Below are positions 10,382 through 52,401 of a DNA stretch of 64,000 bases, one piece after another. The stretch covers positions 79,709-143,708 of the forward strand of contig MU001510.1 of assembly GCA_010093485.1 (NCBI GenBank). The letters are read 5' to 3'. Numbering within the stretch: the stretch's first letter is position 1; every line of letters starts with the position of its first letter. Position numbers and translations under genes: made by a program. The stretch is from Karstenula rhodostoma CBS 690.94 (Eukaryota > Ascomycota > Dothideomycetes > Pleosporales > Didymosphaeriaceae). The notes below the pieces were generated by a model, which was not told the origin of the DNA, searched no databases, and saw only the letters and a list, made by a program, of their open reading frames with translations.

Positions 10382-10537
10382 CTACGCCCTTTTTAGTTAG
10401 CCTATATATAGACGCTAGGTAAGCCTTAATTACTTTTTTAGTCCCCCTTTATTTATATATTAGTAAAATATAACACGCCTTTTTATCCCCCTTATTTTAT
10501 TAATTTACCTACCCTTATAGTGATTATATATAATATA
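10382..10537 (+). mobile_element. R1 retroposon, short form (156 bp)
   Basis: It is inserted in the gypsy-A/C 3' LTR, with an 11-bp duplication TATATAAATAT on both sides (10,371-10,381 and 10,538-10,548). It carries the core from CGCCCTTTTTAGTTAGCC to CCTTATAGTGATTATA. Confidence 0.85.
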
Positions 10538-10569
10538 TATATAAATATAAAGTACTTTAATTTAGATAT

Positions 10570-10775
10570 TATTAAGAATATAAATAATACTTAGTAATAT
10601 CGGGATTTATAGAGCTCTAATTAGCCACGATAAGGGGTACCTTAACCTAAGTACTAAACTAATTTAGGATAAGTATAGTATATAACTAGCCTTTCTAGTA
10701 ATCTTTTCTTATATAGTAATCTAATTAATTCGCTCCCTAAATAAAGGAATATTTAAGCTCCTTTTCTCTACTATA
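10570..10775 (+). repeat. copia-2 5' LTR
   Basis: A 206-bp LTR, TATTAAGAAT...CTACTATA, followed by the conserved GTTATAAGTCTAGTAC primer-site region. Confidence 0.93.
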
Positions 10776-13700
10776 GTTATAAGTCTAGTACTTAGAATAT
10801 AGAATAATTCTCTCTATATACTTTACTATTTAAATATACCCTTTTAGGTTCTCCTATTATACTAAAAGCCTTTTTTATTTAATAAAGCTATAAGTAATTT
10901 AATTATTCTAGTTATTTAGACCTAGCTTATTAATTAAATAAGCTAGTCTTATTAGTTTATAAGCTTATATTTCTAAGTAAACTCTAAAAGTATCTAGTCT
11001 AAAATTAATCTAGATAGTCTAATAGTCCCCTTAATTAAGAATAATTACCTTATTTAACTAGTTATTTTAAAGGAACTATACTAACTAGTTACTTTAGATA
11101 ACCTTAAAGATTATAAGTAGGAGCTTAAATTATATAAAAAGGATAAGGAAAGCTATATTTTAAGGATTATAGAATATTATACTATAGTCTTTAACTAGTA
11201 GATATACTATTCTAAGCTATAAAATTTCTAGAACTAGGTTTATACTACTATTTCCTAAGATCTCCTTACTCTAGTAATAATTAATATAGTTAAAAATAAT
11301 AAATCTACCTTATAATATCTACTTTATATACTAAAAAATAATCTAGTACCTACTAAAAGAGTAACTAAAAATCTTATTTAAGTATAGTATTATACTTATC
11401 TTAATAAAATAAAGAGTAGATAGTAAAATCTAGAGACCTAGTTTAAAGAATAGTAACTCCTCTACTATAAAGTAATTATATACTTAGTTAAAGAAATTAA
11501 AGAAGTATTTATAACCTATAATTTTCTTAAAGCTTTAGGCGAGAAGATTACCCCTAAGTAGTCCTACTTAATTAAGTAATAAATCCTACTTAATAAGATA
11601 CTTAGAAGGCCTATAATAATACTTTCTAAGATTAGAAAGGTATTTTTAGTACTAATCTAAGAATAATTACTCTATCCTAATTATAAAAGGACTAGTATCT
11701 ATATAATATTTAGTAGATAGACTACTAAGCCTAGTAGGGAATTATCTAATAATATATAGAATAATAATTATTTTAACTACCTCTATAAGAATACCTAATA
11801 TAAATAGTAACTAATTAAATATTAATACTTATAAATAGCTATTACTAGTACTCTAATTAATAGATCCTAAGTATTTAACCTTTCTAATAAAGAGTAAAAT
11901 AAGATCTTAAGCTATTTAAAGCTCCTATAATAGTTAAAACTATAGACTAAAATTAATAGTACTAATTAGAAAATAAGTAATAAGAAGTAGCTTATTATTA
12001 ACTATCCTAGTAGTATTATAGTAGCTCTTATTAATTTAATTAATTTTCTAAGTAAAGTCTCTAAGAATAGAATCTATAATATAATATAGAATCCTTATCT
12101 ATTTTTTAAGAGTATAATTCTAGATAATATAGCTACTATTTATTTTATTAATAATTAGAACTTTCTAGTTACTAGTTCTTTTAAGAAAGTAACTATAGAA
12201 AACTAAGTTAAAGTAGAAATTTAAGCTCTATCTATCTTAGAAATAGGAAATTACCTAATTAAGAATATTCTTTATAGTAAGAATAGAAAATAATTAGAGA
12301 ATCTACTACTTAAAGATATAAAGATAGTTAAGAACTTTTATATAAATATTATCTTAGAAGCTTAACTTAAGAAAGTTAGTATTTAGTATCTTAGCTTAGA
12401 TAATACCCTAAGGATTAGAATAATTAAATAAAGTATTATAATAGTAGACCTATAGTATAAGTATAATTTTACTTTCTTTAAATATAAGCTTATATACTTT
12501 TATTCTACTATTATAAATATAATTTAATTATCTAGACTATTAAGAGAGAATATCTCCTACTTAGATAGTAAAGAACTATAGTATAAGTAATTAGAATACT
12601 TTAGAAAAAAGACTTTATAAGCTCTAGTTTCTAGTATATATAGTATATTAATTAAAGGAATATAATAATAAGAATATAAGTATTATATAGTTATATATAT
12701 AAGTAAGGTAATCTTATAATAACTATACAAGTATTTACTATATCTATTCTACTATATTATATAGAACCTATTTAATATAAAGTAAGAATAAATACTTAAA
12801 TCCTAAATTCTTATAATAAAGAAAGAATTTAGTAGGAAGTTCTATAATTTTAATTTATAAGGGAAGATACTTTTAGAGATTCTATAATTAATAAAACGAC
12901 TATTAACCTTTATAAAGAATAAGTACTAGCTTTAAATTATATAAATCTAGTAGGATAATAATATAATAATACTTCTATAGTAAAGGATATTATAATATAA
13001 GAAATAGGTAATTAAAGAAGAAATTATAATTAACCCTTTACTACCTTATATATATAAAACTAATAGTTTAGTAGAGCGAGCTAAAAAAGAGCTAATTAAA
13101 TAAATAGTAAAAATAAGGTCTAGTATAAATCTACTAATAAAGCTATAGCTAGAGATTATAAATATAGTAGTTTAGCTATATAATATAAGCCTAAGTATAG
13201 TATATAGCTTTTAATTACTAAATAAAGTATTAGATAGCTAGTTCTAATAGTACTTTTAGTACTATAAGCTAGTAATTATATAATATATAATAGTAAATCT
13301 CTATCTAGACTAGAGTAAAATTTATACCTATAGATACTAAGTATATCTTCTAATAAAGGATTATAAAGCTAGGTATAATAAAAGGGTATTTAAAATAAAT
13401 CTAAGAGCTTATATTAGGTATTTAGTAGGCTATTAAATTTCTAATATTTATAAAATATAGGTTCCTATACTTAATTAAGTAATTATAACTAGGAATATTA
13501 TATTTAATAAGATAATCTTCTACTAGAGAGTATATAAAATTAAGCTTCTAAAGGTAGAAATTTTAAGAATTATAGAAAGTATTTATAAGGATAAGGTTAA
13601 TAATCTAAAAGATATATTTAATATAATTAATTTTACTTTTAGTTTAAATAAGTATACGAGTACTATAAGAATTAAGGATACTAAGTAATTACTTAAGGGT

Positions 13701-15829
13701 AAAGAATTAAAGTAGATAGATTCTAAGGATAGCTAGCTAAAGAATTAGAAAGTAATAATACTAATTACTATATAAGCTATAGATATAGCTAGCTAGTAGC
13801 TAGAAATTTATATAGGCTAAGATTTAAGTATAGGACTTATAACTCTAGATATAATACTATAGCTAGATATTATAGAAACTAATTAATATAATTATAAGAA
13901 TACTAGAAGCTACTAGAATTAGAATTTAACTAGAAGAGCTAGTAAACTAAAGTCTTAGGATAATACTTCCCTAAAGTAAGAGCTTTAAAACCCTACTACT
14001 ACCTCTTAATCTAGTATAACTAACTCTATACTACTAGATAAAGTAGAAAATCTACTAGTAAATTAAAGGTAATAGTATATCTTCTCTATAGTAAGTAGGG
14101 TAAGTAGATAACTTTAAAAAGAGGTACCTAAAATTAACTAACTAATAAGTAGGTATTTACTAGTTTAAAAGTTAAGATAATAAAATATAAATTATAATAA
14201 TTAACTAGAGGGTAAATTAAATTCTAGTATATATATACTAATAGTAAATCTATTTTTAAAAGATAGTTTCTAAATTAACTTTATATATATATTTATACTA
14301 GGAGTAAATAAAATTTAAAATAAGTATAAAAGCTATAAAATATTAAATATAGTAGTTATAGTAACTATACTTAAGAAACTAAAACTAGTAATATTACTAG
14401 CTTATCTATATAGAGATAAGCTACTACTAGAACTAATACTTTAGAAATATCTACTTTCCTATCCTCTAGGAAAGCTATTTAAGTAGGCTATAATTAAAGA
14501 AATTACTACCCTATAGTAGAAAGGAACTTAAATAAAGCTACCCTAATTATAAATAATAGGATATCTACTTCTATTAAAATAAGTATTTATATATAAGTTT
14601 AATTAGAATAGTTAGTTTAAGAACTATAAAGCTTATATTATAGTTAGAGGGGACTTTTAATTAAAGAATACCCTATACTTAACCTATACTACTATACTTA
14701 TAGTAAAATTATTCTAAGTAGTAATAGTAATTACTATAGAGTTTAACCTTAAGATTAAATAATATAATATTATAGGAGTATTCCTAAATACTATAATTAT
14801 AGTAGATAATCCTATAACCTATAAACTTCTAGATAGGTTTAAGATACTAAGAATATATATAAGATTAAATTAAGCTCTCTATAGTTTAAAAGACTTACTA
14901 CTTCTCTAGTATAAAGAGTTTTCCTACTTACTTAGAGCTAAAGGGCTTAAAGCTTTAAAGGAAGAGCCTTATTTATTCCTTTCTAGAGATTAGAAAATCC
15001 TAGTACTATTCTATATAGATAATATACTACTTCTATATTATAAAAACTATAGAGAGTAAGCTTAAATACTATAGAATAAGGTTATAAATAAATATAAGAT
15101 TAAAGATAAAGGACTAATTAAATAGTTTCTTAGAGTATAAGTAATTAAAGACTAAAATAATTAAATAATTATACTTATATATAATATATATATTAATAAG
15201 ATTATAAAAAGATTTAAGCTTTATAAAACTAATAGCTTCCTACCTACTCCTCTCTTAATTAATAAGCTTAAAAAAAGTAAAGGTAAAGTATTACTATAAT
15301 AGATTAAGAGTTATTAAAAAAAGGTTAGATTAGTATTATATATAGTAATTATACTATAATTAGATATTATATTTACTATATTAAAGCTATTCTTCTTCCT
15401 TACTAATCTAAGTATAAAGTATAAAATAGTAGTTAATTAAGTAATTCTATACCTCTATAAGACGCGTTAAAAAGTAATTTAGTTTAGTAGATATAATAGT
15501 CTAAACCTACTTATCTATAAAGATATATCTTTTATAGATAATTTACTAATAAAATAATTATTCTATAGGTATATTACTTTACTATTTAGTAGCGCTATTT
15601 TATAGAAAGTAGCTTATTAAAGTATAATTATAATTTTAACTATAGAAGTAGAGCTTCTCGCTCTAGAGTATATTAGTAAAGAAGTAATAGTTTTAAAGTA
15701 CTTTTTTACTAAACTTATATTAGATTTAGGATTACTCTAGTAAATCTATTATAATAACTAGTAAATAATTAAACTAGTAATTAGAAAAAATAAAAGGATT
15801 ACTATATATTTTTACTATATTAATATCTA

Positions 15830-17300
15830 AAATATATAGCTATAATAAGAGTATATAAATAGATTATTTAAGGTTTTATATCTTAAAATAAGTAAAATAC
15901 CTATAGATAGTTTAATAAAAGTACTATTAAAGTAGTAGTTTACTAGATTTATATAGCTACTTAATCTTTAAAATATAAGTTTTATAATTATAGATATAGA
16001 AGAAGTAAAATAAATAGAAATTTATTAGATTTAATTATAAAAAGTACTTTTTAACTAGAGAATAAAAGAAAAATAAAGGAAAAATAAAAAAAATTTATCC
16101 TATTTAAATATATTAAGTATCTAATTAAAGAGCTTATAAAGCTAAGTATACTACTATATTTCTAATATATTAGAGTATCTAATATATCTATATCTAAAAC
16201 TACTCTAACTATAAATAGGAGATTCCTTAGCTTTAAAAAATCTATTATAACTATATAGATACTCCTTAAGGTAATTAAAGTTAGGCTACTATTAATTTAT
16301 ACTATAATAACTAATACTTAGGTCTATTTTATAAAGTTACTATAAAGTATAGTACTTATAAGAAATAGATATACTATATTTAGGAGTATATATAGCTTTC
16401 TATAAGCCTACCTCCTAGCTATCTATAGGGTAGATTTACTAAAAAATAAATAAAGTAGGGATAGAAGTAGTAAAAATAGGGATAAAAGTAGGAGGAGTAG
16501 AGATAAAAGTAGAAATAAAAGTAAGTAAAAGTAGAATAGAAATAAATAGAGTAGGGATAGAAATAAAAAAAATAAGAAAAAAGCTAATTATTAAGTAGAG
16601 ATTCTATAAAAGTATAAGAAGGATTTTTTAACTCTTATTCTAATCCTTTAGTATAGCTTAAATATACTACTATAAATAATTAACCTTATAAGCCTATATA
16701 TAGTTAGTAAAAATCTAAGTAATAAAGAAGATAAAAGAAGTTTATACTAGAGTTTAAATTATTATAGAATAGAATAAAGTATATTATATATATAGTTAGA
16801 AATAGTAGACTATAATAATTAGTAAAATTTAACTAGATAAGTAGAGAATCTAGCTTATATTAATTTATATAAATATATATAATAATAAAAGTAATACCTA
16901 GTCTACTAGTTTATAATATTATAGTAGAGACTATCTAACTTACTACTTAAGATACTTATTAAATAGTTAAGATAGTTTATTAGCTAAATAGCCCTAATAT
17001 ACTCTTCTTCTATAGTTAGAGAAGTATATAATACTATTAAAGGAGCTTAGCTAGAAGTATAAAAAGTAGACTAAGTAGGAGGATAACTAGATTAATAAGT
17101 TATTTAAAAAGTTATAGTAAATCTTTTAGTAGTAGCTACTTATTTAGCTTTAAGTCTCTTTTTTTATTTATATACTTTAGTAGTATAAGCTTTAGTAGTA
17201 TTATTAGCTATCTAAAAAGGTATAAATAAAGTATTAAAAAGTAAAAGGTAAGAATATACTATAAAATAGAATAATAGAGATAAAAAAAAAAAGTTTAAAA
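15830..17300 (+). pseudogene. copia-2 extra region downstream of RNase H (degenerate third ORF)
   Basis: After the RNase H relic one frame continues as protein-like sequence interrupted only by TAG and TAA, the codons RIP makes from Gln and Trp. It includes a hydrophobic-basic stretch and then a strongly purine-biased tract at 16,441-16,592 that reads as a Lys/Arg/Ser/Asp-rich low-complexity segment (repeats of the type RDKSRNKSK). The same region is present in copia-1 (purine tract about 7,986-8,100) and, reversed, in copia-3 (about 33,757-33,890), so it is a fixed part of the element. I do not recognise a domain. It could be an accessory protein or a long 3' untranslated region. Confidence 0.5.
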
Positions 17301-17592
17301 GGTATAAAAAATACCTTTTTATTCTATCTACCTTTACTAATTTATACTATATAATAATTACTTATCTTATTTACTATTACTTACTATATTTAGTTATAAG
17401 GCTACTACTATTTATAAGTATTATACTAAGTACTAGAAAACTCTTACTTTAGCTAATTAGTATTATAATACTAATAATAGTATAATATAAGTAGGAAATT
17501 ATAATCTAAGCTATATATTTCTAAGGGAAGCTAATCTAAATAATTAAATTCTATTAGTAAATAAATAATAAGCGCTATTTACCTAGGGGGTA

Positions 17593-17783
17593 TATTAAGA
17601 ATATAAATAATACTTAGTAATATTAGGGTTTATAGAGCTCTAATTAGCTATAATAAGGGGTACCTTAAAATTCAGAATAAGTGTAGTATATAACTAGCCT
17701 TTCTAGTAATCTTTTCTTATATAGTAATCTAATTAATTCGCTCCCTAAATAAAGGGATATTTAAGCTCCTTTTCTCTACTATA
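17593..17783 (+). repeat. copia-2 3' LTR
   Basis: Same LTR as 10,570-10,775 but 15 bp shorter inside. The ends are intact and it is followed by TSD GATAT. Confidence 0.93.
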
Positions 17784-18130
17784 GATATAAAAGTAAACTA
17801 CTTCTAAATAATATTTTAAGTTAATTATAAAGAATAGAAACTATATAGAGATTCTTCTAGATTATATACTAGTTATTCTATTTTTCTAATATCCTATTAT
17901 CCTATATTAAGGGGGTTATCCCTAGGATATTTATTATCCCTAGAATATCTATTCTATATAGAATAATATTATATAACTTTATTATTTTACTAGCCCTAGA
18001 CTTTTATAGAATATTATTATATAATATTAATAGCTAGTTTTTCTAATCCTTATTACTAACCCTCTATTTTCTATAGTTAGTACTATCCTTTATTATATTA
18101 CTTTCTAGTATACTTTCTATAATTATAATA
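17784..18130 (-). repeat. remainder of gypsy-A/C 3' LTR
   Basis: This continues the LTR begun at 10,218. It matches the gypsy-A/C 5' LTR at 50,039-50,565, including the TTAAGGGGGTTATCC block, and ends with CTATAATTATAATA, the complement of the LTR start TATTATAATTATAG. Confidence 0.88.
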
Positions 18131-21100
18131 TTACCACCCTATTTAGGGTTATTATTTTAATATCTTATTATTATTCTTATAGTATAGTTATTATATAGTA
18201 TTCCTACCCTTCTTAGGTTCTAGTATATAAAGGTAAGTCCCCTTTAGGGTTAATTTATATTATATCCCCTTTTAAATTTCTCTTACTTTTCTAACTATAC
18301 TAAAAGCTCTTTATTTAATAGTTAAGTCTTATTATACTTATATATAAAAGATTAAATTTTAATACCTAAAAATATTAGATTTATTAGGTTATAAGTATTA
18401 TTAAAAGCTATAGCTTTATTATTTTATAGATATAAAAACTAGCTACTATACTAGCTACCTTTCTATATATATAGACTATAGTTTTTAGGTACCTAATAAA
18501 GAGTAAAAGTATATTTAAATAAAAAAATATAAAAAATATCTTATTTTTCTTTATATTAAGGCTAAGATTACTTATCTTAAAATAGAGGTTATAGAGATAA
18601 AGGAATAAAAGTATTCTTTTACTTAATATAACTTTTAGATTATTAGTATTATAGATTATTTATAAGAGGAGAGTTTTTTATCTATAAAAAGTATAGTTTC
18701 TAATAGCTAATATATATTTTTACTATCTTTACTAATAACTACTAATAGTAGCTAGTTATAGGCTAAGCCTTCTTTCCTTTTTTTTAATTTTTCTAACTTT
18801 TTTACTAATTTTAACTTTATATCTTTCTTACCTAACCTCCTTAGAATTATTCTAACTAGAACTCCTCTATTACTTCCTTATAGTTTATAAGATTTTTTTC
18901 TAGTTTCTATAAATTATATTATTCTAACTATTCTTTCTACTTAACTAAGTATCTTTATTAACTTTTAATTATTTATAGGTCCTTAATTATTTTAATTTTA
19001 TACTTATTATTTTCTAACTTTAGTTAGGTTTTAATCTAAGTATTTAGAGATACTAGTTTTAAAAGTAATTTATAAAAGATAGAGTATATCTTTATACCTA
19101 TTAGTAGAAGTAACTTAATTATAACTAGTCCCTTTATTTCTTAAACTTTAAAGGATCCTATCTAAAGGTAATCTAGTTTCTTACTTAGTTATTTTATCTT
19201 TAAATTTTTCTATAATAAGAAAACTTTATCCCTTTTTTTAAAAATTAGTCTTTTAATTTTTTTCTTATTTATATTTTTAAATACTATAAGGGCTCTATAA
19301 GTAATCCTTTCTTATAGAACTTTATAAAGTTTCTTTATTTTCTAAATTTTATCTTAGGCTTTAGTAGAAATACTTTCTATATTTTTTAAATTCTAATAAG
19401 TAACTAGCTTATATTTATAGTTTATATAGTAGGGTAAGTATTTTATTATATCTAACCTTAAGCTATTATATACTAACTATATAATTAATAAAAGTTCTAT
19501 TTAGTTATCTTATTACTTATTAATATAGAATTATAGATACTACTTAAATATTTAATTTATATATTTTATCTATTTATCTATTTTAAAATAGAAGCTTATT
19601 AATAGCTTTTAGTTTATTCCTAGAGCTATAGTAAAAGTATTTTAATACTTTAAGGTAAAGAACTTATTTTTATTTATAATAAATTTTTCTAGTAGTCTAT
19701 ACTTAAAGAATAGTATATTATCTATTTTATAGGCTAATTTCTCTACTATTATAGACTTTTCTATAAGTCTAAACTTAGCTATCTTTATAAGTCTATATAC
19801 TATTACTATAATAGTATTATATATATACTTTATCCCTAGCTATAGTAATTTTAAAAGTTTTATAATAAAATCTATTATTATACTTTACTATAGTTATTTT
19901 ACTATAAATAGTAGTTATAGAAGTCTATAAGATTTATATCTCTTAAACTTATTTTTATAGTAAACTAAATAGTTACTTATTTTCTATATTACTAGCTACT
20001 AAAGTTTAGAAATAGTATATTTATTTATAATATAATATATTATTTCTTTATTATCTAAGTATTCTTATTCTTTTAATATATATAGTCTTCTAATTAGAAT
20101 AGATATATATCTATTATTAATAATAATCTATTATTAATATAGTCTTATTTAATTTTATTAAAATTATACTTAAAGAAATTATATTCCTTTTTCTAGCTTT
20201 AATTAAGTTTCTAGTAGCCCTAGAAGTTTTATATTTCTAGTTTTATATATTTTAGACTAGCTATCTATACTCTAATCTTTAGTTAGTTATATTTAAATAT
20301 ACTATTTTTATATTTATATAATATTATATTATATAGCTTAACTTTATTTTTAGTTAAGTTTAATTATTTACTTAAGGTATATACTATACTATTAAAAGTT
20401 CTAAATTAATAGTAAATTATAAAATTAAAATTTACTAAAAATTCTATTTATTATACCTATTATTAGTTAAACTTCTTAGTTAATATAAAGCTAGGAAGGT
20501 TCTAATAGTCTATTTATATTTCTACTTTAAAGTAGGCTTTTATAAGTTATACTTTCTATTATTTAAAAATATCTACTATTACTAATAGTTCCTTATTTTA
20601 AATATTATAGTTAAATTTTATTTCTAAGAACTTTTATAAATAGTAGAATACTAGTTTCTATTTTCTATTTTTATCTAGTTATAAGAGAATTACTTCTAGT
20701 ATATAGTTAAATATATCTATTTTAATCTTTACTAGTTTTTATAAGTTAAATATTTATAAAAGTAGGGCTATTAGGAATATTACTTATAATTTCTTAAATA
20801 CCTTTAATAGCCTCCCTTAAATTAACTATATAACTTTATTATTACTTTTCTTTATAAAATCTATTAGTAGTATAGTAATTTTAGAATAGTTCTTTATAAA
20901 CTTCTAATAGAAGTTAGTAAACCCTAAAAAGAATTAGATATTTTTTACTAACTTAAAAACTAGCTATTTCTATATAGTAGTAACCTTCTTTAAATCTATT
21001 AATATACCTTTTTTTAAAATAATAAATTTAAGGTACTTTATTTTAGTAATATAAAACTTATACTTATTTAGATAAAAAAGTAACTAATATTTTTTTATCT

Positions 21101-22917: not shown

Positions 22918-23246
22918 TATAACGTTATTAATATTTTATAATATCTTTAATATTTTATAACTTCTTTATAATTACGCGTTAGGTATTAGTGAATAAGGAG
23001 TATACTACTCTATTAATATTATATAGTATTATAGTATTATAGTATTACTATATTATATAATATATATAGGTAGATTACTACTTAGTTAATTAAATCTAGT
23101 ACTATAGGTATCTTTCTTTCTCTCTTATTATAAATAGTACTATCCTTTAGAGCTATTTAATAGAACTATATAGTACCTCTAGATATTTCCTTATTACTAG
23201 ATAGTTATAATAGTAACTTTATATTAAAAAAAAAAAAAAAAAAAAA
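22918..23246 (+). mobile_element. R2 poly(A)-tailed retroposon, 5'-truncated
   Basis: It shares the R2 3' region, including repeated TAGTATTATAGTATTA, TAGTACCTCTA and CTTTATATTA, and ends in a run of 21 A (23,226-23,246). It lies at the point where gypsy-A/C gag breaks off. Confidence 0.8.
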
Positions 23247-23535: not shown

Positions 23536-24547
23536 TATTAATACTATTTTAAAGTATTATAATATTCCTTTTAATTCTTATATCTATATATATAGTATAA
23601 CCCTATAGTATAATCTTCCTTTAGTAGCTTTTTATACCCTAATTTACTAAGTACCTCTACTATAGTATCCTTTTCTATCCTATAGTATTTATAATTAGTA
23701 AAATTATTATTTATAATAAATAAAGTAAGGAAGTAAACTATTATAGTAGAGCTTCTATATAGCTAGCTAAACCTTAGGGCTATATATTACCTAATTAGAA
23801 TAGAGAATTTTAGGTTTTCTATTAGTTAAAAAAAGGTATTTTATATATTCTAATTAGTTCTTAAAATATAATATAATAATATATCCCTAAATATTAATAT
23901 AACTAATATATTATCTATAACTACTCTAGCTATAGAATATTAAATTTAGCTATATATTTTTAAATATTTACCTAGTATATAATCCTTTTTTAGGTATTAG
24001 TCTAGTTTAATACTAATTAATATTTTAAAAACTTAAAATCTCTTTTTTAACTTAATTTAACTTTATCCTTTATCTATCTTTTTACTATAATACTATTATA
24101 ATACTTAACTTTAATTATACTTTTAGTAATTTTATACTATTTTCTTTATTTATCTTAACTTCTTTTAAAATATTCTATACTTATAGAATACTATTTATAT
24201 CCTTTATTTCTATAATACTTTCTAATATTTTCTAATAGAGTATCTATTATATATAATATAGATATACTTATCTAAAATAATATTATATCTATAATATATA
24301 AAATAAAGTATAAATATTCCTTTTTATTATTATTTTAACTAATATTAATAGGGATTTATAGGCACTATTATCCCCTAAATTTACCTACCCTAAAGTTATA
24401 ATACTATACTTTTTTATATTAAAAAGTATACTATTATCCTATTTATCTTTACTAGTAAACCTACTATATACTACTATAAATACTATATAATACTCTTTTT
24501 ATAATATTTTACTTTTTTATTAGTATACTTTTTTTAAATACTATATA
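23536..24547. other. unassigned degenerate element (block X, part 1)
   Basis: About 1 kb of RIP-saturated DNA without open frame. Together with 24,716-25,730, 26,962-30,610 and 45,419-47,886 it forms the block that splits gypsy-A/C gag and received R1, R2 and gypsy-B insertions. I could not recognise reverse-transcriptase or transposase motifs. It may be one old element or several. Confidence 0.5.
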
Positions 24548-24703
24548 TATTATAGAGATTCAATATAAGGTAGGGTAACTTAATAAAGTAGGGGGGATAA
24601 AAAGGCGTGTTATACTTTTACTAATACACGAATAAAGGGGGACTAAAAAAGTGGCTAAGGCGTACCCAGCGTCTATATATAGGCTAACTAAAAAGGGTAT
24701 AAA
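24548..24703 (-). mobile_element. R1 retroposon, short form (156 bp)
   Basis: Flanked by a 12-bp duplication AAATACTATATA (24,536-24,547 and 24,704-24,715). It is one of the least mutated R1 copies: it keeps GGCGTGTTATAC, TACACGAATAAAG and GTGGCTAAGGCGTACCCAGC, with several CpG, CpA and TpG still present. Confidence 0.88.
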
Positions 24704-24715
24704 AAATACTATATA

Positions 24716-39760: not shown

Positions 39761-42700
39761 CTAATTTATATATTCTATCTATTTATTTATTTTAAGATAG
39801 AAGCTTATTAATAGCTTTTATTTTATTTCTAGAGCTATAGTAAAAGTATTTTAATATTTTAAAATAAAAAACTTATTTCTATTTATAATAAATTTCTCTA
39901 GTAGTTTATACTTAGAGAATAGTATATTATTTATTTTATAGGCTAATTCCTCTACTATTATAGACTCTTTTATAGGCCTAAATTTAACTATTTTTATAAG
40001 TTTATATATTATTACTATAATAATATTATATATATACTTTATTCCTAGTTATAATAATCTTAGAAGTTTTATAATAAAATCTATTATTATACTTTATTAT
40101 AGTTATTTTACTATAGGTAGTAGTTATAAAAGTTTATAAAATTTATATCTTTTAGACTTATTTTTATAGTAAGTTAAATAGTTATTTATCTCTATTATAA
40201 CTAATTACTTAAGCTTAAAAATAGTATATTTATTTATAATATAATATATTATTTCTTTAATATTTAGATATCCCTATTTTCCTAATTTATATAGTCTTTT
40301 AATTAGAATAGGTATATATCTATTATTAATAATAATCTACTATTAGTAATCTTATCTAGTTTTATTAAAACTATACTTAAAGAGGTTATATTCCTCTTTC
40401 TAGTTTTAATTAAGTTTCTAATAGTTTTAGAAGTTTTATACTTCTAGTTTTATATACTTTAAACTAGTTATTTATACTCTAATCTTTAGCTAATTATATT
40501 TAAGTATATTATTTTTATATTTATATAATACTATATTATATAGCTTAACTTTATCCTTAATTAAGTCTAATTATCTACTTAAGGTATCTACTATACTATT
40601 AAGAGTTCTAGGTTAATAGTAAATTATAAAATTAAAGTTTACTAAAAATTCTACTTATTATACTTATTATTAGTTAAGCTTTTTAATTAATATAAAATTA
40701 GTAAAGTTTTAGTAGTCTATTTATACTTCTATTTTAAAGTAGGCTTCTATAAACTATATTTCCTATTATTTAAAAGTATCTACTATTATTAGTAGTTCCT
40801 TATTATAAATATTATAGTTAAGTTTTACTCTTAAAAATTTTTATAAATAATAAAATACTAGTCTTTATTTTCTATTTTTATCTAGTTATAAGAGAATTAC
40901 TCCTAATATATAGTTAGATATATTTATTTTAACCTTAACTAGTTTTTATAAATTAAATATTTATAAAAGTAGGGCTATTAAAAATATTATCTATAATTTT
41001 CTAAATACCTTTAATAGTTTCCCTTAAATTAGCTATATAACTTTATTATTACTTTTCTTTATAAAATCTATTAGTAGTATAGTAATTTTAGAATAGTTCT
41101 TTATAAACTTCTAATAAAAGTTAGTAAACCTTAGAAAAAATTAGATATTCTTTACTAATTTAGGAACTAGCTATTCCTATATAGTAGTAACCTTTTTTAA
41201 ATCTATTAATATACTTTCCTTTAAGATAATAAATTTTAGATACTCTATTTTAGTAATATAGAACTTATACTTATTTAGATAAAAAAATAACTAATATTTT
41301 TTTATTTTTTTAAATACTTTTTTTATATATCCTATATATTCTTCTAGTATTCTAGTAGAGTAGATAAGTATATTATTAAAATATACTATATAGAATATAT
41401 TTAAATATTTATATAGGGCTTTATTAATAACTACCTAAAATATTATAGGGATATTTATTAATTTAAATAGTATAATCTAGTATTTATAGAGATTATACTT
41501 AGTTTTAAATACTATTTTTTATTTATATCCTTTAGTAATTTATATATAATAATATCTATTATATATATTAAATTTTATAAACTATTTAGCTCCTTAGATT
41601 TAATTTATAAGGTTTATAATTAAGGGTAATAGATACTAATTCTTAATTATAATATTATTTAGCTATCTATAATTTATATAGAGTTATAGCTTACTATTTT
41701 TCTTAGATACCTATAGGATTAGAAAAGCTATAGAATTATAACTTTTCTAAATATACTTTTATTCTAGGTTCTTTTATAAGTACTCTTATACTTCTTTTTT
41801 CTAGTCTATTAATATTAGTTTTAACTATTTTAGTTATAGTTTTATACCTTTTTTTAAAGATATTATATAATCCTATTTTTAGTAATTTAGTAGTTTTTCC
41901 TTTTTAATTTCTTTAAAAAGTTTTATATACTCCTTATATTCTAATAGAATTATTAATAGTTTTTTTATAATTTAGAGATCTAAGTATTATATCTAAATAA
42001 TTTATACTTATTTTAGGTTTTCCTTAAAAATCTTAGTAATTTTAGTAACTAAAATCTCCTTAGTTTATTATTATATAGCCTACTTAGTTAGAGTATTTAG
42101 GGCTTTTAGCTTTACTTTTTATAGGTATTTTATACTAATAATCTATAATATTAATTCTTAGTTATATATTATTTAACTTTTCTAATTAATATCTAGGTTA
42201 TTTTCTAATAACTAGTTATAGTCTATAATAGTTTTTAGACTTTCTATATCTATTATAGTAAAATTATATTAACTCTTAAATTCTTTAATACTTACTAGTA
42301 ATAGTAGTATCTTAAGGTATAACTAGTCTTTATTATATTTTTAAAAAAATATTCTATTTACTATTTCTAATTAGACTAGCTCTATTTTATTTTAATATAC
42401 TAAATTATATTTTTTTACTATTTTAGGTAAGATTAGATATTTAGTAGTACTAGGGTCTATTAGTATATTTACTTAGAATTTTTTAATTATAATCTATTTT
42501 TTTATATAAAATTCTATAACTTTATTATTTCTATTTACTTTTTAAGTCTTTAGAATACTTTTACTAGCTTAGCTTATTACTTAGTAATATTCTAGTTTTT
42601 TAATATTATTTATATCTTAACCTATAGTTTTTCTAGATATCTATAGTTATTATAGAGGGGGTAATTAGTATAGTATAGTTCTATAGTATATCTTTTTATT

Positions 42701-44632
42701 AGTTTTAGATAAGCTTAGGGATTTTTAGAATAATTCTAGATTATATATCTCTAGTATTTTTTTACCCTTATTACTTTTATAATTTCCTCTTTATTAACCT
42801 TATATTAGTATTTTAAATATTTAATAATTATATATTTAAAGAAATATATCTTTTTATAATCCTTATTATCTTAGTTATATATAGTAGCTTCCTTTTTACT
42901 TAAGTACTCTAGATACTATTCTAGATAGTTATAGTAGTACTACTTAACTTTATATATATATTATATTTTATCCTTAATTAAATAGATAATTTCTTTATAC
43001 TTATAAAGTACTTCTATATCTCTTAAGTTTTTTCTATTAGCTAATAATATATAGTATATTTTTATCTCTAATACTTAGAATAGCTTTCTATATAGTATTA
43101 TTACTATTTTAGTATATTATAGTTATATAACTATTATTCTAATTAGTAGATATAGTATTATATTTCTAGATAGTCTTTTTTTAAAAACTTTTTATAATCT
43201 AGTTATTTAAAGGCCTTAGTTATACTAGTTTTCTCTTCTTTATAGTATTTATAGCTATTATAGTTATAGTACTACTATTTAACTTTTAAATAATTATTAT
43301 TAATCTAAATTTACTATATAGGTACTAGGATACTTTCTTATTATTCTTTTATTTAATAGTATATTTAGTTAGTATTTATACCTATAATTCTAATCTTATA
43401 GTTATAAACTAGTATAAAATACTTATTATTTCTATATACTTAGTATAGGTCTTATAGAATTTAATTTATAATATTTTTTTTATTAATTATTTTTTAAACT
43501 TCCTTTAATAATTTAGAGGAATTAGAGTTATTTTCTATATTATCCTTTTATAGTAGTATAGAAGTCTTAGACTATAGTATTATTATAGCTACTCTTATTA
43601 TTTAGACTTACTTACCTTAAAATTTTCTAAAAGAATATTTAGTTTTAAAATATCCCTTCTCTTTATAATTTAGATAAGCCTTATTTTTAAAGTATTATTA
43701 TTAGATATTATTTTATTTCTTTTATTATAAGGTTTATTTCTTCTTTTTATAGGCTTTATCTCCTATAATTATATTTTTATTATAATTCTTTTACTTATAA
43801 TATAGCTTCTATATATTAGCCCTTAGACTAAATACTAGTTTAGTAAATTTCTTTTTTTCTAGCTATTATTTATATAATTAATAGTTAATTTATACTACTA
43901 ATTTAATTAGGGCTTCTAGACTATTAGGCTTCTTATAATAGAGTAATTTATCCTTAATTAGTTTTTTTAAGTTATTATAGTAGGCTACCTATAGTAGGAT
44001 ATTATTCTAATTAATTTTATTCTAGAGCTATTAGAATATAGTAAAGTATTTATTAGCTAATCTTATTTACTTAATATATTAGATAAGTTATTTAGCCTAT
44101 TATTCTTTATTTACTTTACTAAATATAATCTTAATTTATTTTTTAAATTCTTTTTAGAATATAAAGATCTTTATAGTCTCCTTATTCTATTTTTCTAGTT
44201 CTATTTTATATATTAGAAAGTCTTTAATAATTAAATATATTTATTCTACTACCCTTTCTATTATATATATTATAGTAGCTAAGATTTTTACTTAGTTATT
44301 TCTAAATATATTATAGTTATATTTATAGTATAACTTTATATTTATTAAGAATATTTTAAAGTTAGTCTTTATTTCTTTATTATAGAGTTCTAGAATTTTA
44401 AAGTTAACTCTTAGTAGGTATACTACTATAGTTATAGAAGCTTAAACCTATTCTATAATTATAGCTAGCTATATTTTAAACTATTCTACCTTTTTAGCTT
44501 ATATTATTAAAAGGATTACTAGATTACTAGCTAGATCTAAAATAGTACTTACTTTAAAGCCTCCTAAGCTAGTAGGTATATTTAGTAATACTATATTAAT
44601 TTAAACCCTTAAGTAGTTAAAGTATTATAAGG
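39761..44632 (-). mobile_element. gypsy-B pol 5' part and gag
   Basis: This continues gypsy-B after the copia-3 insertion. The RT box relic is at about 41,355-41,384. From about 42,600 to 44,632 the sequence corresponds to gag; its right half matches the gag piece of gypsy-A/C at 48,650-50,038. No open frame remains. Confidence 0.85.
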
Positions 44633-45124
44633 GGTTTCCTATATATTTAACCTAGGTCTATACTTTAAAAATTATTTAAGGAATAAAATATAATAAAAGT
44701 AAATATTAAATTAGTAAATAATTCTATATTATAATAAAATATAATATAATAATACTAAGAAAAGACTAAGTATTTATATATAAATAAAATACTTTAATTT
44801 AAATATAAAAGTTAATTATAAAGAATAGAAATTATATAAAAATCTTTTTAAATTATATACTAGTTATCCTAATTTTTATTATTTTAGAATTCCCTAGTCT
44901 ACTCCTATAGATTCTATCTTTTTAATAAGAGTATCTACTCTACTCTTACTAAAATCTAGTACTTCTAGAATCTTATATTCTTAGTAGAATTATAGTTATA
45001 TAATTTATAATATAAGCTACCCTATAGGCTTATATATAAGTATCTATTAGTTTTATTTCTATTACTAATATCTTATATATAATTCTTTCCTTTTTTCTAG
45101 TCTAGTTCCACTATAATTATAATA
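44633..45124 (-). repeat. gypsy-B 5' LTR
   Basis: 492-bp LTR, partner of 30,616-31,117. It is followed on the plus strand by TSD TAAAA. Confidence 0.9.
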
Positions 45125-45247
45125 TAAAAAACCTATTAATACCTATATAAAATAGCTCTACTAGTAATTCTTAAAGACTATTATTCTTAATACTATTTAA
45201 TACTAATAAGAAGATAGTAAAACTAACTTTTAAAATACCCTTTTATA

Positions 45248-45403
45248 TTATAGAGATTCACTATAAGGTAGGGTAACTTAATAAAGTAGGGGGGATAAAA
45301 AGGCGCGTTATACTTTACTAATATACGAATAAAGGGGGACTAAAAAAGTAGCTAAGGTATACCTAGCGTCTATATATAGGCTAATTAAAAAGGGTATAGC
45401 GCT
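45248..45403 (-). mobile_element. R1 retroposon, short form (156 bp)
   Basis: Flanked by a perfect 15-bp duplication AAATACCCTTTTATA (45,233-45,247 and 45,404-45,418). It runs from TTATAGAGATTCACTATAAGG to AAAAAGGGTATAGCGCT on the plus strand. It is the best-supported R1 copy. Confidence 0.92.
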
Positions 45404-45418
45404 AAATACCCTTTTATA

Positions 45419-47886
45419 ACTTTAAGTTAATAAAAGTATTTAGTAGGACTAATTACTATTCTAAATTTATTATAGGGCTATTCTTTTAAATTTAGAAATA
45501 AATACTTTCTATAATTCTATATACTTTTATACTAAGTACTATAAAATTAATATAATTAATTATAATTATCTTTAGGACTAATACTAGCTAGTATTAGCCT
45601 ACTATACTAAATATAATAACCCTATATATATAATAATACTATTAATAGAAACTAGTAATCTAGAGAGTAAACTTCTTTTTTTTATTAGTATTAAAATTAT
45701 ATTTCTAGCTAATATTTAAACTAAGTATAGTCTTATTAATAGAGCTATTAGTAAGGTTAATAATATTATATAGTATTTAGCTATTATAAATTATATAAAG
45801 AAACCCCCTTTAGCTATTTTTACTACTTTTAATTAGTATATAGGGCCTAGTCTATATATTATAAAAGTAGGTAAAATAGCTATACTTATTTTTTCTATAT
45901 CTTATAAATTTCTTTATAACTAGATAGTTATTATATAGGTCTAGTTTCCTCTCTACTTAATATAGGCTATTATAGTATATAAGTCCTAAAATCTTAGTTT
46001 TATTTTAGCTAGAATATTTATATCTAGGGAGAAGGATTTTATTACTAGTTTACTATATATTACTCTATTATATATAAGGAGTATTAAAAGCTTTATATTT
46101 AAGACTTTTTTTTTTTTTTAGTATCTAAGGTCTAAAGATAGGAAATATATAAAAAAAAGAAAATAATAAAGGTTAAATTAATTACTTTTATATTTAAGAA
46201 CTATTTTCTAATTATTATAAAGCCTAATATCTTTTAGTATACTTAATACTATATTTTTTACTAATTTATTACCTAGTTTTTATCCTTAGTACTATAAAGT
46301 ATATTTATAATTTAATCTATATTATTAAATAGATCCTCCTTATTACTAAATATTATATCTAGAATATAAGTAGCCTCTTTACTAGTAAATTTACTTACTC
46401 TAAATATATAGTTTCTAATTTATTAGTAATACCTAATACTATAGCTAATATTTTATTTCTAAAGTAGAATATAATATATACTTCTTATATAGACTAGAAA
46501 GTAGTAGAGTAATACCCTCTTTATATTTATTTTAGTATACTATATAAACTATAAATTAGTAGAAAAAGCTAGTAAATTAGGCTATATAAAATAGACTAAT
46601 AAGTACTCTCTTTTATTTAGACTATAGAATTATAAATAGTAGGTAAGTAATTCTTAAAGTCTTATATATAGAGAGATATTATATAGCTAATAAGGTTACC
46701 TTATATAATATATAATATTATATTAAATTAGTTAAAAATACTATAATTTAAATAAATATTTATCTTTATATTCTTTTAAGTTAATATTCTCTTTACTAGA
46801 ATTAGATCCTAAACTTATATATTTAACTTAGCTAGTATTTATTTAATCTATACCTAGTAGATATTAGTAAAGTATTAGTTTTAAAATACTTATATACTTA
46901 TAAATAGAAGATTTTTATTCTATAAATTATTAAAAAAGGTTTTAAGACTTTAGTAAAGATAGTTCTATTTCTAGTATAAAGTTTTAAAGTATTTAGTAAT
47001 TTTATTCTTTATAATAATTTAAGTATTAAGTATAGCTATATTTTTAATACTAATTTTAATATTAAAAACTTCTTATTTAAAAACTTTTTAGTCTATTTTA
47101 ACTTCTTCTTTCTTATTTCTCTTAAAAAATAGTAAATAAGTTAAGTAATTACTAGTCTAAAGTCTTTAATAATAAGGCTCTAGTATTAGTTAAGGTATTA
47201 GGTAATTAAGTAGATATTAGTATTATTAAAGTTAAAATAGAGAAATTAAAAATATTAAAATACTAAACTTATTTTTTTATAAACTACTTAGCTTTAATTT
47301 TACTAATATTTTAGCTAGTATAGGCTATTACCTTATAGCGCTAAGTAATTCTAGTATTAAAACTATTAAATATATTAGTATTTAATACTACCTAATACTT
47401 CTTTAACTTATTATATTATATTATATATATTATTTAATTAGATATATAACTACTTTAGTATATTAAACTAGTCTCTTATTAGTAACTAATTAATAATTAG
47501 CTATATAGCTAGTAGAAAGATATTCTTCTAAAACTTAAAATAATATATATTATCTACTATTTTATTATATTTTATAGTAAACTCTTTACTAGTTTTTTTT
47601 TACTTAAGTAGCTATATTTTTTTTTATACTTTTATTTAAAGAGTACTCTCTAGCACCTTTATACTACTTAATATTAGGTAGATCTACTATAGTAAAGGTA
47701 TTAGATAAGTATTAGATATAAGATAATAGGTAGGTATTAGATATAGAATAAATAATTATATAGTCCTATAATATAGAGTATAGAAAAAAGATAGTAAAAA
47801 TAAATAGAAGAAATTATTAATAAATATTATAAATAAACTTTATATAATTAAACCTTACTATTATATATCTATCTATTAAGTATATA
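45419..47886. other. unassigned degenerate element (block X, part 4)
   Basis: About 2.5 kb of RIP-saturated DNA without open frame. If gypsy-B is removed, this joins 26,962-30,610. I recognise no domain. Confidence 0.5.
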
Positions 47887-48250
47887 TACTATAAATACTA
47901 AAGCGCCTTTATTTACTTAAGTAAAAGTAAATATATTTTACTTAAAAATAGAAATATTTTATTACTTTTTTTATTATATAGACTAATACTATCTAATATC
48001 CTATATATACTTAAAATAGCTTAAATATATTAAGTTTTTATAAAATTAAAATATATTTACTTTTTATTTTTACTATAAATACTAAGGCGCCTTTATAATT
48101 TATTTACTAAAATAAAAGTAAATATACCTTACTTAAAAATAGAAATATTTTATTATTATTTTTTACTATATAAAATAATACTACCTAATACCCTATATAT
48201 ACTTAAAATAACTTAAATAAATTAAGTTTTTATAAATATAAAACTCTTTT
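47887..48250. repeat. tandem duplication, two units of about 184 bp
   Basis: Unit 1 starts at 47,887 and unit 2 at 48,071 with TACTATAAATACTAAGGCGC. Both contain CTTACTTAAAAATAGAAAT and TATATACTTAAAATA in the same order. They look like a direct repeat of a terminal or regulatory segment, possibly LTR-like, but there is no interior between them. Confidence 0.8.
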
Positions 48251-48649
48251 TCTAATTTATTATCTTTTATTTTTATTTTTTTCTAGTTTACTTTTACTTA
48301 TATTACGCGCGCGCGCTAAATAAGCCTATTATATAATTTATATAAATACTATAATTTCTACTTTTTTATTCTCTCTCTTCTTTACTTTAATATTATAAAC
48401 TATAGTAATAATAAGTTTTTATTAATTAAATTTTTAAGGAAAATACTACTTTTTAAGATTTAGTAGGTAATTTAGTACTACCTTAATAGTAGTATAATAC
48501 TAGGTAAAATACCTCTTTAATATAGTTAAGTAGTTCTAGCCTATTTAGCCCTATTAATTATATTCTTTTAAATTCTTTTTTTTTTATACTATAATTTTTA
48601 TATAGTTACTATATACTTCCTCTTTTATCTTTATAGATAATAAGAATTT
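48251..48649. other. unassigned AT-rich DNA with a CG run
   Basis: Degenerate DNA between the 184-bp repeats and gypsy-A/C gag. It contains an uninterrupted CGCGCGCGCGC (48,306-48,316), which RIP would not remove because it contains no CpA. The exact resumption point of gypsy-A/C lies somewhere in 48,600-48,700. Confidence 0.6.
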
Positions 48650-50038
48650 ATTATAAATATACTAATTTAGTTTATATAGATTAGTAATATATTTTAGTAC
48701 TACTATTTAATTATTAAATAGTTATTATCTATTTAAATTTACTATACTAGTACTATAACTTATCCTTATTAAAGTTTTATCTATATATAGGTTTAGTATA
48801 TATTAATACTAGTAATTTTAATCTTATATATATAGTCTAGTATATAGTAGTCTTTTTTATTATATATCTAGTACTAATTTTATAAAATTTATTTTATAAT
48901 ATTCTTTTTATTAGTTATTTTCTAGACTACTATTTATAGTTTAGAGGTTTTAAATTTATTATTTATAGTATCCCCTTATAGTAGTATAGGGGTTTTAGAC
49001 TATAGTATTACTATAGCTATCCTTATTATCTAGGCTTATTTATTCTAGAACTTTCTAAAAGAATATTTAGTCTTAAAGTATTTCTTCTCTTTATAGTTTA
49101 AATAAGCCCTATTTTTAAAATATTATTATTAGATATTATTCTACTTTTTTTATTATAAGGTTTATTCCTTTTTTTTATAAACCTTATCTTTTATAATTAT
49201 ATCTCTATTATAATCCTTTTATTTATAATATAGTTTTTATATATTAGCTCTCTAGCTATATACTAGTCTACCTAACTCTTTTTTCTCTAGTTATTACTTA
49301 TATAGTCTATTATCTACTTATATAACTAATTTAATTAAATCTTCTAAAGAGTTAAATTTATTATAATAGATTAGTTTATCCTTAACTATTTCTATTAGTC
49401 TATTATAGTATACTACTTAGAATAGAATATTATTCTAATTAATCTTTACTTAGAGTTATTTAAATATAGCTAAGTATTTACTAGTAGATCTAGTTTATTT
49501 AAAGTATTAAATAAAATACTTTATCTATTATTTCTTATTTACCTCTCTAAATATAACCTAAATCTATTTTTTAAAATTTTTCTAGAAATTAAAAACCTTC
49601 TTTATCTCTACCTTCTATTTCTTTAGGATTTCTTTATATTTAAGGTAATTTTTAATTAAGGGCTATAGCTATTCTATAGCTCTCTTTTTTATATATATTC
49701 TAGTAGCTAGGACCTTAGCTTAGTTATTTCTAAATATATAACTATTATACTAATAGTATAATTCTATATTTATTAGAAAGGTTTTAAGTCTAGCCTAATC
49801 TCTATTAAAAAGCTCTAGAACCTTAAAATTAATCCTTAATATCTATACTACTAGTACTATTTCTCTATTTATAAGTTTTACTAACTACTTTCTAAGCTAT
49901 TAGATCTTATTAACCTAAGTAACTAGTACTATAGCTAGATTTATTATAGGGCTAGAAGTTAAGCTTTTAGTTACTACCCTAAATACTACTAAGCTAGATA
50001 GTATTACTATATTAACTTAAACCCTTAAGTAGTTAAAG
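48650..50038 (-). mobile_element. gypsy-A/C gag, 5' part
   Basis: This minus-strand gag remnant matches gypsy-B gag (about 43,260-44,632). The shared end is AACCCTTAAGTAGTTAAAG next to the 5' LTR. It continues the gag cut at about 22,917. Confidence 0.78.
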
Positions 50039-50565
50039 TATTATAAGGGGTTTTCTATATATTTAACTAAGGTCTATACCTTAAGGATTATTTAAAAAAT
50101 AAAATATAATAGAGGCTATATAAAGAAATAAGTAAATATCCTATATTATAATAATATATAATATAATAATATTAAAAAAAGACTAAGTATTTATATAGAT
50201 ATAAAATATTTTAATTTAGATATAAAAATAAATTACTTCTAAATAATATTTTAAGTTAACTATAAAGAATAAAAACTATATAAAAATTCTCCTAGATTAT
50301 ATACTAGTTATTCTATCCTTCTAATATTCTATTATTCTATATTAAGGGGGTTATCCTTAGGATATTTATTATCCCTAGAATATCTATTCTATATAGAATA
50401 ATATTATATAACTCTATTATTCTACTAGCCCTAGACTTCTATAGAATATTATTATATAATATTAGTAACTAGTTCTTCTAATCCTTACTACTAACCCTCT
50501 ATTCTCTATAGTTAATATTATCCTTTATTATATTATTTTCTAGTATACTTCCTATAATTATAATA
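50039..50565 (-). repeat. gypsy-A/C 5' LTR
   Basis: 527-bp LTR, same subtype as the split LTR at 10,218 to 18,130, and followed by TSD TAAGA (50,566-50,570). Confidence 0.88.
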
Positions 50566-50699
50566 TAAGAATTAAAATAAATATATTTAACTATATATTA
50601 GAAATAATTCTCTTATAACTAAATAAAAATAGAAAATAAAGACTAGTATTCTATTATTTATAAAAATTCTTAGAAGTAGAACTTAACTATATATTATAA

Positions 50700-50843
50700 A
50701 AAGTTTTTACCTTACTAGTATATATAGGCGGCCAGTGTAGTTCTATATATATTTATACACGATTATATATACTAGATACCCTAGATATACTAGCCAGCCC
50801 TATATTTTTATAGGTATATATATATAAGGTATTAGTAATATTT
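50700..50843. mobile_element. small insert that largely escaped RIP
   Basis: Compared with gypsy-A/C, gypsy-D has an extra stretch of about 145 bp here. It keeps CpA, TpG and CpG (GGCGGCCAGTGTAG, TACACGATT, CTAGCCAGCCC) in a region otherwise stripped of them. Its ends share a loose TACCTTA...TAAGGTA inverted motif, so a tiny MITE-like insertion is possible. The boundaries are good to about 10 bp. Confidence 0.55.
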
Positions 50844-51362
50844 ATAATAAGAAACTACTAGTAATAGTAGATACCTTTAAATAATAAAAAGTATAGTTTA
50901 TAGAAGTCTACTTTAAAATAGATATATAAATAGACTACTAGAACCTTATTAGTTTTATATTAACTAAAAAGTTTAACTAATAATAAATATAATAAATAGA
51001 ATTTTTAGTAAACTTTAATTTTATAATTTACTATTAATCTAAAACTTTTAATAGTATAGTAAATATTTTATATAGATAATTAGACTTAATTAAAGATAAG
51101 GTTAAGTTATATAATATAGTACTATATAAATATAAAAATAATATACTTAAATATAATTAACTAAAGATTAGAGTATAGATAGCTAGTCTAAAATATATAG
51201 AACTAGAAATATAAAACTTTTAGAACTACTAGAAACTTAATTAAGGCTAGAAAAAAAAATATAATCTTTTTAAGTATAAATTTAATAAAATTAGATAAAA
51301 CTATTAATAGTAGATTATTATTAATAATAAATATATATCTATTCTAATTAGAAAACTATATA

Positions 51363-51660
51363 TTATAGATATTTACTATAAGATAGGGTAACTTAATAAA
51401 GTAGAGGGGATAAAAAGGTATATTATATATTACTAATATATAAATAAAGGGGAACTAAAAAAGTAGCTAAGACTTATCTAGTATCTATATATAGACTAAC
51501 TAAAAAGGATATAGTACTAAACTATCTAAAATAGACTTAGTATATACCTACTAATATATAAGAAATCTAACTATAGAGAGTTAATAAGGTATTAAAAAGG
51601 ATAGTTCTTATTAAGACTAGAAGAAAAATATATATAGATGGGTACCACCGCCTATATTAC
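51363..51660 (-). mobile_element. R1 retroposon, 298-bp form
   Basis: Flanked by a 15-bp duplication TTAGAAAACTATATA / TTAGAAAATTATATA (51,348-51,362 and 51,661-51,675) that differs by one C-to-T change. It contains the core plus about 145 bp shared with the 1,304-bp form, ending at GGGTACCACCGCCTATATTAC on the plus strand. Confidence 0.9.
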
Positions 51661-52253
51661 TTAGAAAATTATATAAATTAAAAGAATAGGGATATTTAGA
51701 TATTAAAAAAATAATATATTATATTATAAATAAATATACTATTCTTAAATTTAAATAATTAGTTATAATAGAGATAAGTAACTATTTAGTTTATTTTAAA
51801 AATAAGTATAAGAGATATAAGCCTTATAGGCTCCTATAATTACTACCTATAGTAAAATAACTATAGTAAAGTATAATAATAGATTTTATTATAAAAAATT
51901 TAAAATTATTATAGCTAGAAATAAAGTATATATATAATACTATTATAGTAATAATATATAAACTTATAAAGGTAACTAAGTTTAGGCCTATAAAAGAGTC
52001 TATAATAGTAAAGGAACTAGTCTATAAAGTAGATAATATACTATTTTCTAAATATAGACTACTAGAAGAATTTATTATAAATAGAAATAAGCTCTTTATT
52101 TTAAAGTATTAGAATACTTTTACTATAGCTCTAGAAATAAATTAAAAGTTATTAATAAGTTTCTATTCTAAGATAAATAAATAAATAGAATATATAAATT
52201 AAATACTTAAGTAGTATCTATAGTTCTATATTAATAAGTAATAGAATAATTAG

Positions 52254-52401
52254 TCCTTTTTAGTTAGCCTATATATAGATACTAGATAAGTCTTAGCTAT
52301 TTTTTAAGTCCTACTTTATTTATATATTAGTAAAGTATAATATACCTTTTTATCCCCCTAGTTTTATTAATTTACTAGTCCTTATAGTAATTATATATAA
52401 T
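52254..52401 (+). mobile_element. R1 retroposon, short form (148 bp)
   Basis: Inserted in gypsy-D with a 13-bp duplication ATAGAATAATTAG / ATAGGATAATTAG (52,241-52,253 and 52,402-52,414). It runs from TCCTTTTTAGTTAGCC to CCTTATAGTAATTATATATA. Confidence 0.88.

Follow-up and report, generated by a model that had tools for sequence, protein, structure and literature searches.

The closest known systems to R1, a dispersed repeat family of the fungus Karstenula rhodostoma CBS 690.94, are Mg-SINE and MINE/WEIRD of Magnaporthe. We analyzed R1 from a 64,000-nucleotide stretch of DNA (hereafter the window; positions 79,709–143,708 of contig C19, in an assembly of 44.3 Mb and 29 contigs). According to the part of the source available to us, WEIRD of Magnaporthe grisea is a 1.1 kb non-coding RNA that is copied by the machinery of a long interspersed nuclear element (LINE) with target duplications of 10–20 bp, and every occurrence described is a fusion with a truncated MGL LINE or with Mg-SINE (PMC2104539). 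R1 resembles MINE/WEIRD in its apparently non-coding RNA, its fungal host, and the size of its duplications, but it stands alone, has a constant 3′ end of its own, and is itself 5′-truncated. No truncated LINE was found as the 3′ part of R1, as it is in MINE: the similarity did not exceed the control in a comparison that did not cover the LINE 3′ ends. The same part of that source describes Mg-SINE as a non-autonomous element whose 3′ end resembles that of the mobilising LINE and whose 5′-truncated pieces occur in chimeras (PMC2104539). R1 is likewise non-autonomous and also occurs as 5′-truncated pieces; unlike Mg-SINE, it had no LINE with a matching 3′ end in the parts of the LINE-type loci that could be read, is longer than a short interspersed nuclear element (SINE), and shows no RNA polymerase III (pol III) head. 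In the consulted part of PMC5063351, AfuSINE2 and AfuSINE3 of Aspergillus fumigatus resemble R1 in being fungal and non-autonomous and, for AfuSINE2, in having duplications (4–14 bp); they differ from it in being tRNA- or 5S-related, 140–493 bp long, and of low copy number. The crapaud element of Podospora, present as solo long terminal repeats (LTRs) and fragments, is an LTR retrotransposon and, unlike R1, not target-primed, as far as the available part of PMC10787394 describes it. None of the listed titles on K. rhodostoma concerned repeats, and no fungal non-autonomous LINE-dependent element was recognised as R1 from titles and abstract openings, a survey that did not cover Repbase and Dfam.

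On the results described below, R1 is highly likely to be a retroposon of K. rhodostoma that does not move autonomously, apparently encodes no protein, and is mobilised by a LINE-type enzyme.

R1 insertions in the window and in the genome

From base 1 to approximately 58,400, the window had a GC content of 16–22% and CpA and TpG each at 0.01 of expectation, the signature of saturated repeat-induced point mutation (RIP), which thus affects most of its length. The initial annotation described six insertions bounded by duplications of 11–15 bp in this region, and direct reading of the letters agreed with both ends and with the duplications in all six. A full-length copy of 1,304 bp lies on the minus strand at 4,401–5,704, with its 3′ end at 4,401 and its 5′ end near 5,704 (a GGCC-type start, here AGCC); the 12-bp duplications, read directly, are at 4,389–4,400 on the 3′-end side and at 5,705–5,716 on the 5′-end side. 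The other five are 5′-truncated and were seen both in direct reading and by BLAST: 156 bp at 10,382–10,537 (plus strand; 11-bp duplication at 10,371–10,381 and 10,538–10,548), 156 bp at 24,548–24,703 (minus strand; 12 bp at 24,536–24,547 and 24,704–24,715), 156 bp at 45,248–45,403 (minus strand; 15 bp, AAATACCCTTTTATA, at 45,233–45,247 and 45,404–45,418; locus L001, also found by the duplication test described below), 298 bp at 51,363–51,660 (minus strand; 15 bp with one transition at 51,348–51,362 and 51,661–51,675), and 148 bp at 52,254–52,401 (plus strand; 13 bp with one transition at 52,241–52,253 and 52,402–52,414). All six were thus real, but the count was incomplete: BLAST with the 158-bp R1 core as the query gave a seventh, 5′-truncated copy of approximately 294 bp without a clear duplication on the plus strand at ~9,294–9,587 (core match 9,435–9,587, with similarity back to ~9,294), in addition to six core matches with E-values of 1e-30 to 2e-51. 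A segmental duplication joining the copies at 9,435 and 10,382 (and loci L004 and L026) was considered and rejected, because the compared extracts overlapped. The constant end (TATAATATA) and the variable opposite end reported earlier were both seen in direct reading. A second version of the 3′ end (..TTATATATAATATA instead of ..TCTCTATAATATA) was present in the window copies at 4,401–4,420, 10,518–10,537, and 52,382–52,401, which indicates at least two 3′-end subfamilies.

A DNA search in which 40 of 679 candidates were scored listed 41 R1 matches. The 15-base RIP-mutated 3′ end occurred 339 times genome-wide (11 for the reversed control), the intact 27-base 3′ form 89 times (control 0), and the 28-base RIP-mutated 5′ end, with at most one mismatch, 83 times (control 0). 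The genome therefore contains at least 428 3′ ends, 339 mutated and 89 intact. The R1 core was present at each of the first 30 listed RIP-mutated 3′ ends, which are on contigs C1 and C2. Seven of these 30 copies reached the common 5′ start and were full-length at 1,190–1,330 bp; the other 23 measured 84–543 bp, with a truncation cluster at 136–175 bp (12 of 30). One 5′ start was common to 16 aligned full-length copies of 1,190–1,331 bp. On contigs C1–C6, 18 of the 34 5′ ends had an exact 3′ end 0.69–1.31 kb downstream on the same strand; when the wrong strand was examined as a control, only 1 of the 34 did. Head-to-tail pairs of R1 approximately 132 bp apart were observed at C2:783435 and 783567 and at C11:796643–796936, where it appears that one truncated copy inserted into, or next to, the TA-rich tail of a second copy.

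These lengths bear on the SINE-like reading of the initial annotation, in which four of the six window copies shared a 5′ point as a SINE would. The copies of approximately 150 bp are the 3′ ends of an apparently non-coding element of 1.19–1.33 kb; the shared stop is a truncation cluster, and the element's own 5′ end is 1.19–1.33 kb away. R1 is not a SINE, as its 16 full-length copies exceed the SINE full length of less than ~700 bp. A true pol III SINE of approximately 150–175 bp, with the longer copies formed as template-switching chimeras, would account for the 12 sampled copies in the cluster, but the 5′ breakpoints are scattered over 136–175 bp and on to 543 bp, and the 16 long copies begin at a single point. 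The tests for coding, tRNA, pol III, Rfam, and folding were run on RIP-mutated or partly restored sequence. Within these limits, the search for a tRNA-, 5S-, or 7SL-like head and pol III boxes proposed earlier found no tRNA, A box, or B box in the de-RIPped, still partly mutated composites, and scans of the RIP-mutated window gave neither a tRNA nor an Rfam family. We consider such a SINE distinctly improbable.

Target duplications and the 3′ tail

Removal of two duplicates from 66 copies with a 3′ hit left 64, and these were tested for target duplications with a GC-weighted match score and 3,766 swapped-flank pairs as the control. Thirty of the 64 scored above the 99% point of the control, where 0.64 would be expected by chance, and 39 scored above the 95% point. 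The apparent lengths were 10–18 bp, plus one of 24 bp, and some included bases shared with the tail. A first count of this microhomology (21 of 30 vs. 14%) was biased by the score and was replaced by one in which only bases outside the tail counted toward the duplication score. Twenty-six of the 64 copies still exceeded the 99% point of the control. In 14 of these 26, the duplication had at least three bases in common with the tail, compared with a chance rate of 9.5% (p = 1.6e-8). The frequent repetition of the last bases of the tail in the first bases of the duplication is consistent with reverse transcription being primed by TA bases of the target that pair with the 3′ end of the RNA.

Intact copies end in ...CTCATAGTGAATCTCTACAATA, mostly followed by TA. 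The tail was CTACAATATA in most of the intact matches shown and TATAATATA after RIP, and some copies carried additional TA units. The TA-richness of the tail reported earlier is partly a product of RIP. When each TA was written as YR, 176 3′ ends were found, vs. 82 for the RIP-mutated 18-base form.

A remnant of a DNA transposon, such as a miniature inverted-repeat transposable element, or a solo LTR would also be dispersed, apparently non-coding, and of high copy number. The ends of R1, GGCCGGCGTTAG... and ...CTACAATATA, show neither inverted repetition nor paired terminal motifs, however, the duplications of 10–18 bp are not fixed in length, and truncation is one-sided; we regard this origin as extremely improbable. 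Terminal inverted repeats and a fixed duplication length, which the initial annotation had named as evidence against retroposition, were both absent when ends and duplications were compared.

The truncated 5′ end, constant 3′ end, variable duplications, and microhomology of R1 are the anatomy of target-primed reverse transcription. A retroposon mobilised by a LINE is expected to combine a constant 3′ end and variable 5′ truncation with variable duplications of approximately 7–20 bp, and these features are present in R1. From this anatomy we infer target-primed retroposition, as the initial annotation had proposed, and because the anatomy is of this kind, R1 probably parasitises a LINE-type enzyme.

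Element structure and the search for a LINE partner

The four copies of subfamily A (six pairs, 1,286 bp) differed by 80–111 transitions and 0–1 transversions, with no indels. The nine other within-subfamily pairs showed 84–124 transitions, 0–9 transversions, and 0–113 gap columns, the larger values all being from subfamily C. The divergence of the youngest insertions is almost only RIP. In the comparisons made between subfamilies, with transitions masked, identity was 92–100% over the first ~540 columns, except in columns 360–420 (73–83% for A vs. the others). From column 1,020 onward it was again 92–100%, apart from 86% at the very end of the window copy. Over the middle (columns 540–1,020), identity was 67–89% between A and C and 91–100% between A and B, D, or the window copy. 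Two groups of subfamilies thus diverge in the middle but hardly at the ends, which suggests that the ends are conserved and the middle can be exchanged, perhaps via template switching. Each frame contained 28–76 stops in three sequences, two of them full-length copies, and the three sense frames of one composite gave no Pfam match. Between the subfamily representatives (six pairs), 46 of 91 indels were not a multiple of 3. A hidden coding region in R1 was thus unsupported in the mutated copies, the sense frames only having been submitted to Pfam.

Reverse transcriptase (RT) and endonuclease (EN) domains of possible partners were sought in the genome. PF00078 gave 105 RT matches, and the LINE-type endonuclease PF14529 was found at three loci. 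When the C4 and C20 frames were used as protein queries, the only loci found were those on C4, C20, C17, and C26 and fragments on C9, each once. The loci on C4, C20, C17, and C26 had a GC content of 50–54%, the C4 frame encoded 1,279 amino acids with both EN and RT, and the C9 pieces had one stop each. A multi-copy LINE was not found with PF00078, PF14529, or the C4 and C20 protein searches, which a distant or heavily RIP-mutated family could escape. At E ≤ 1e-40 the C4 RT had one hit, of 26% identity, so that at this threshold nothing points to a host gene that is widely retained. The search for a LINE sharing the 3′ end of R1, suggested in the initial annotation, gave no partner in the readable parts of the LINE-type loci. 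Similarity to R1 after computed RIP was rejected as a sign of partnership, the best score being 50 bits (L032) vs. a control maximum of 57 for that locus (49–60 over all loci).

Thirty of the 105 RT matches were fetched; 25 contained stops, and seven of these were read (three from a 20-member and four from a 5-member cluster). From their motifs, as read by eye, all seven appear to be Ty3/gypsy-like LTR elements. A RIP-mutated LINE partner was therefore not seen among the matches read, 75 others being outside the sample. R1 sequence accounted for at least some of the linkage within the 5-member cluster. R1 copies were located within ~1.5 kb of RIP-mutated Ty3/gypsy-like RT matches at L045, L047, and L049, and at L049 the copy starts directly behind the RT match. 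The protein searches did not connect the LINE-type loci with two further stop-free RT matches, at C15:526,405 (presumably telomerase-like) and at C19:444,628. A lightly mutated 3′ piece of R1, 94% identical to the composite, is present at C4:2652973–2653129 on the plus strand, approximately 1.1 kb past the end of the intact 1,279-amino-acid frame and in the opposite orientation.

Intact copies, RIP, and the proposed mechanism

Of 12 degenerate 5′ matches, one was clearly intact, three had retained CA at two sites, and the other eight were RIP-mutated. The only clearly intact 5′ end is at C26:107,958–107,990 on the minus strand, and an intact 3′ end lies 2.2 kb away on the same strand at C26:105,758. 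LINE-type EN/RT frames are located at C26:109,603–112,653 on the plus strand, head-to-head with this R1 and with the open frame ~1.6 kb away; a shared promoter region is conceivable. The C26 pair bears on the possibility that R1 copies are the 5′-truncated 3′ ends of an autonomous LINE, with the 1.2–1.3 kb form internally deleted and the coding form being the 2.2 kb copy or missing from the assembly. In its favor are the divergent middle between near-identical ends, the lengths of the indels, and the intact ends at C26, which have a LINE-type endonuclease match at a distance of 2.4 kb. No RT or EN match was obtained between the C26 ends with PF00078, PF14529, or two protein searches, however, and the stops in every frame of the three sequences also oppose it. 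In addition, LINEs that carry both EN and RT are usually longer than 2.2 kb. We judge this explanation to be unlikely, and prefer a non-autonomous R1 mobilised by a LINE-type enzyme.

Several observations weigh against the preferred explanation. Multiples of 3 accounted for 45 of the 91 indels, above the one third expected and partly in trinucleotide repeats, so R1 may have had a coding past that was lost. The C26 pair, at 2.2 kb, exceeds every RIP-mutated full-length copy, and C26:105,758–107,990, known by its ends only, might include coding sequence or represent two copies rather than one. The similarity of the LINE-type loci to R1 was within the shuffled control over their readable parts, true 3′ ends not covered, and the 3′ end of R1 gave no notable fold or stable stem-loop (z −0.4). 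On C1–C6, 16 of the 34 5′ ends lacked an exact same-strand 3′ 15-mer in range. In the swapped-flank test, 34 of 64 copies had no duplication above the 99% control. The window copies at 24,548, 10,382, and 52,254 failed this automatic test, and that at 51,363 failed it at 99% (p = 0.016). The failures at 24,548 and 52,254 occurred because BLAST had placed the 5′ breakpoint too far upstream; the AT-only duplication at 10,382 is weak taken alone. For these four duplications, the evidence is direct reading.

In regards to RIP, long copies are mutated more often than 3′ ends overall. The ratios of intact to mutated ends were 1 to 83 for 5′ ends and 89 to 339 for 3′ ends (Fisher p = 5e-7), or 4 to 83 for 5′ ends when the three partly mutated ones were counted as intact (p = 1e-4); both tests are weakened as the 5′ and 3′ patterns differ in stringency and the 5′-bearing copies are also among the 428. 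The 33 intact 3′ sites on C1–C6 were at a median of 260 kb from the nearest mutated end, and the 97 mutated 3′ ends on these contigs were a median of 6 kb apart. Twelve intact copies matched 150–175 bp of a 175-base query, which sets a minimum length only, and a further weakness is that the intact copies are known from their end sequences and not from full lengths or flanks. RIP typically needs ~400 bp, and one paper adds cases down to 150 bp, according to the available parts of the sources (PMC4522978, PMC10787394). Escape from RIP by shortness, a principle already known, would explain the pattern of intact copies. Retention in short and long mutated copies was 0.53 vs. 0.47 (p = 0.09), which is not a clear difference. 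On the question of whether mutated copies move, the correlations of RIP patterns between copies exceeded simulations, with subfamilies as a confounder. An apparent restriction of R1 to AT-rich DNA (64 of 64 flanks with ≤28% GC) was rejected as a sampling bias of the mutated probes, given the 89 intact 3′ ends. Beyond ~58,400, the window had a GC content of 44–49% in 2-kb steps and ordinary dinucleotides; genes for a short-chain dehydrogenase and a fungal transcription factor adjoin the edge of the mutated block at 58,455–62,030.

In the mechanism that we propose, a long R1 RNA, probably a product of RNA polymerase II, would be taken up by a LINE-type endonuclease/reverse transcriptase, probably that of one of the single-copy loci on C4, C20, C17, or C26. 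The enzyme would nick a TA-rich target, the TA bases of which would pair with the 3′ end of the RNA, and copying would begin there and usually halt short of the 5′ end. RIP would then hit long copies and copies inside repeat blocks, and isolated, probably short copies would remain intact. We tentatively suggest, as a doubtful possibility when taken as a whole, that R1 outlives RIP by a division of labour among a single-copy RT that RIP does not see, an intact long source on C26, and mostly too-short progeny that accumulate by the hundreds, intact where isolated and mutated only if long or in repeat blocks.

R1 comprises more than 400 insertions in one genome. Those whose length was measured span 84 to 1,331 bp, and the divergence of the youngest subfamily is almost pure RIP. 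These copies pose the question of which enzyme made hundreds of them when no multi-copy LINE was found. As a natural dose series, the R1 copies could show how long a sequence must be for RIP to act on it and whether short retrocopies escape.

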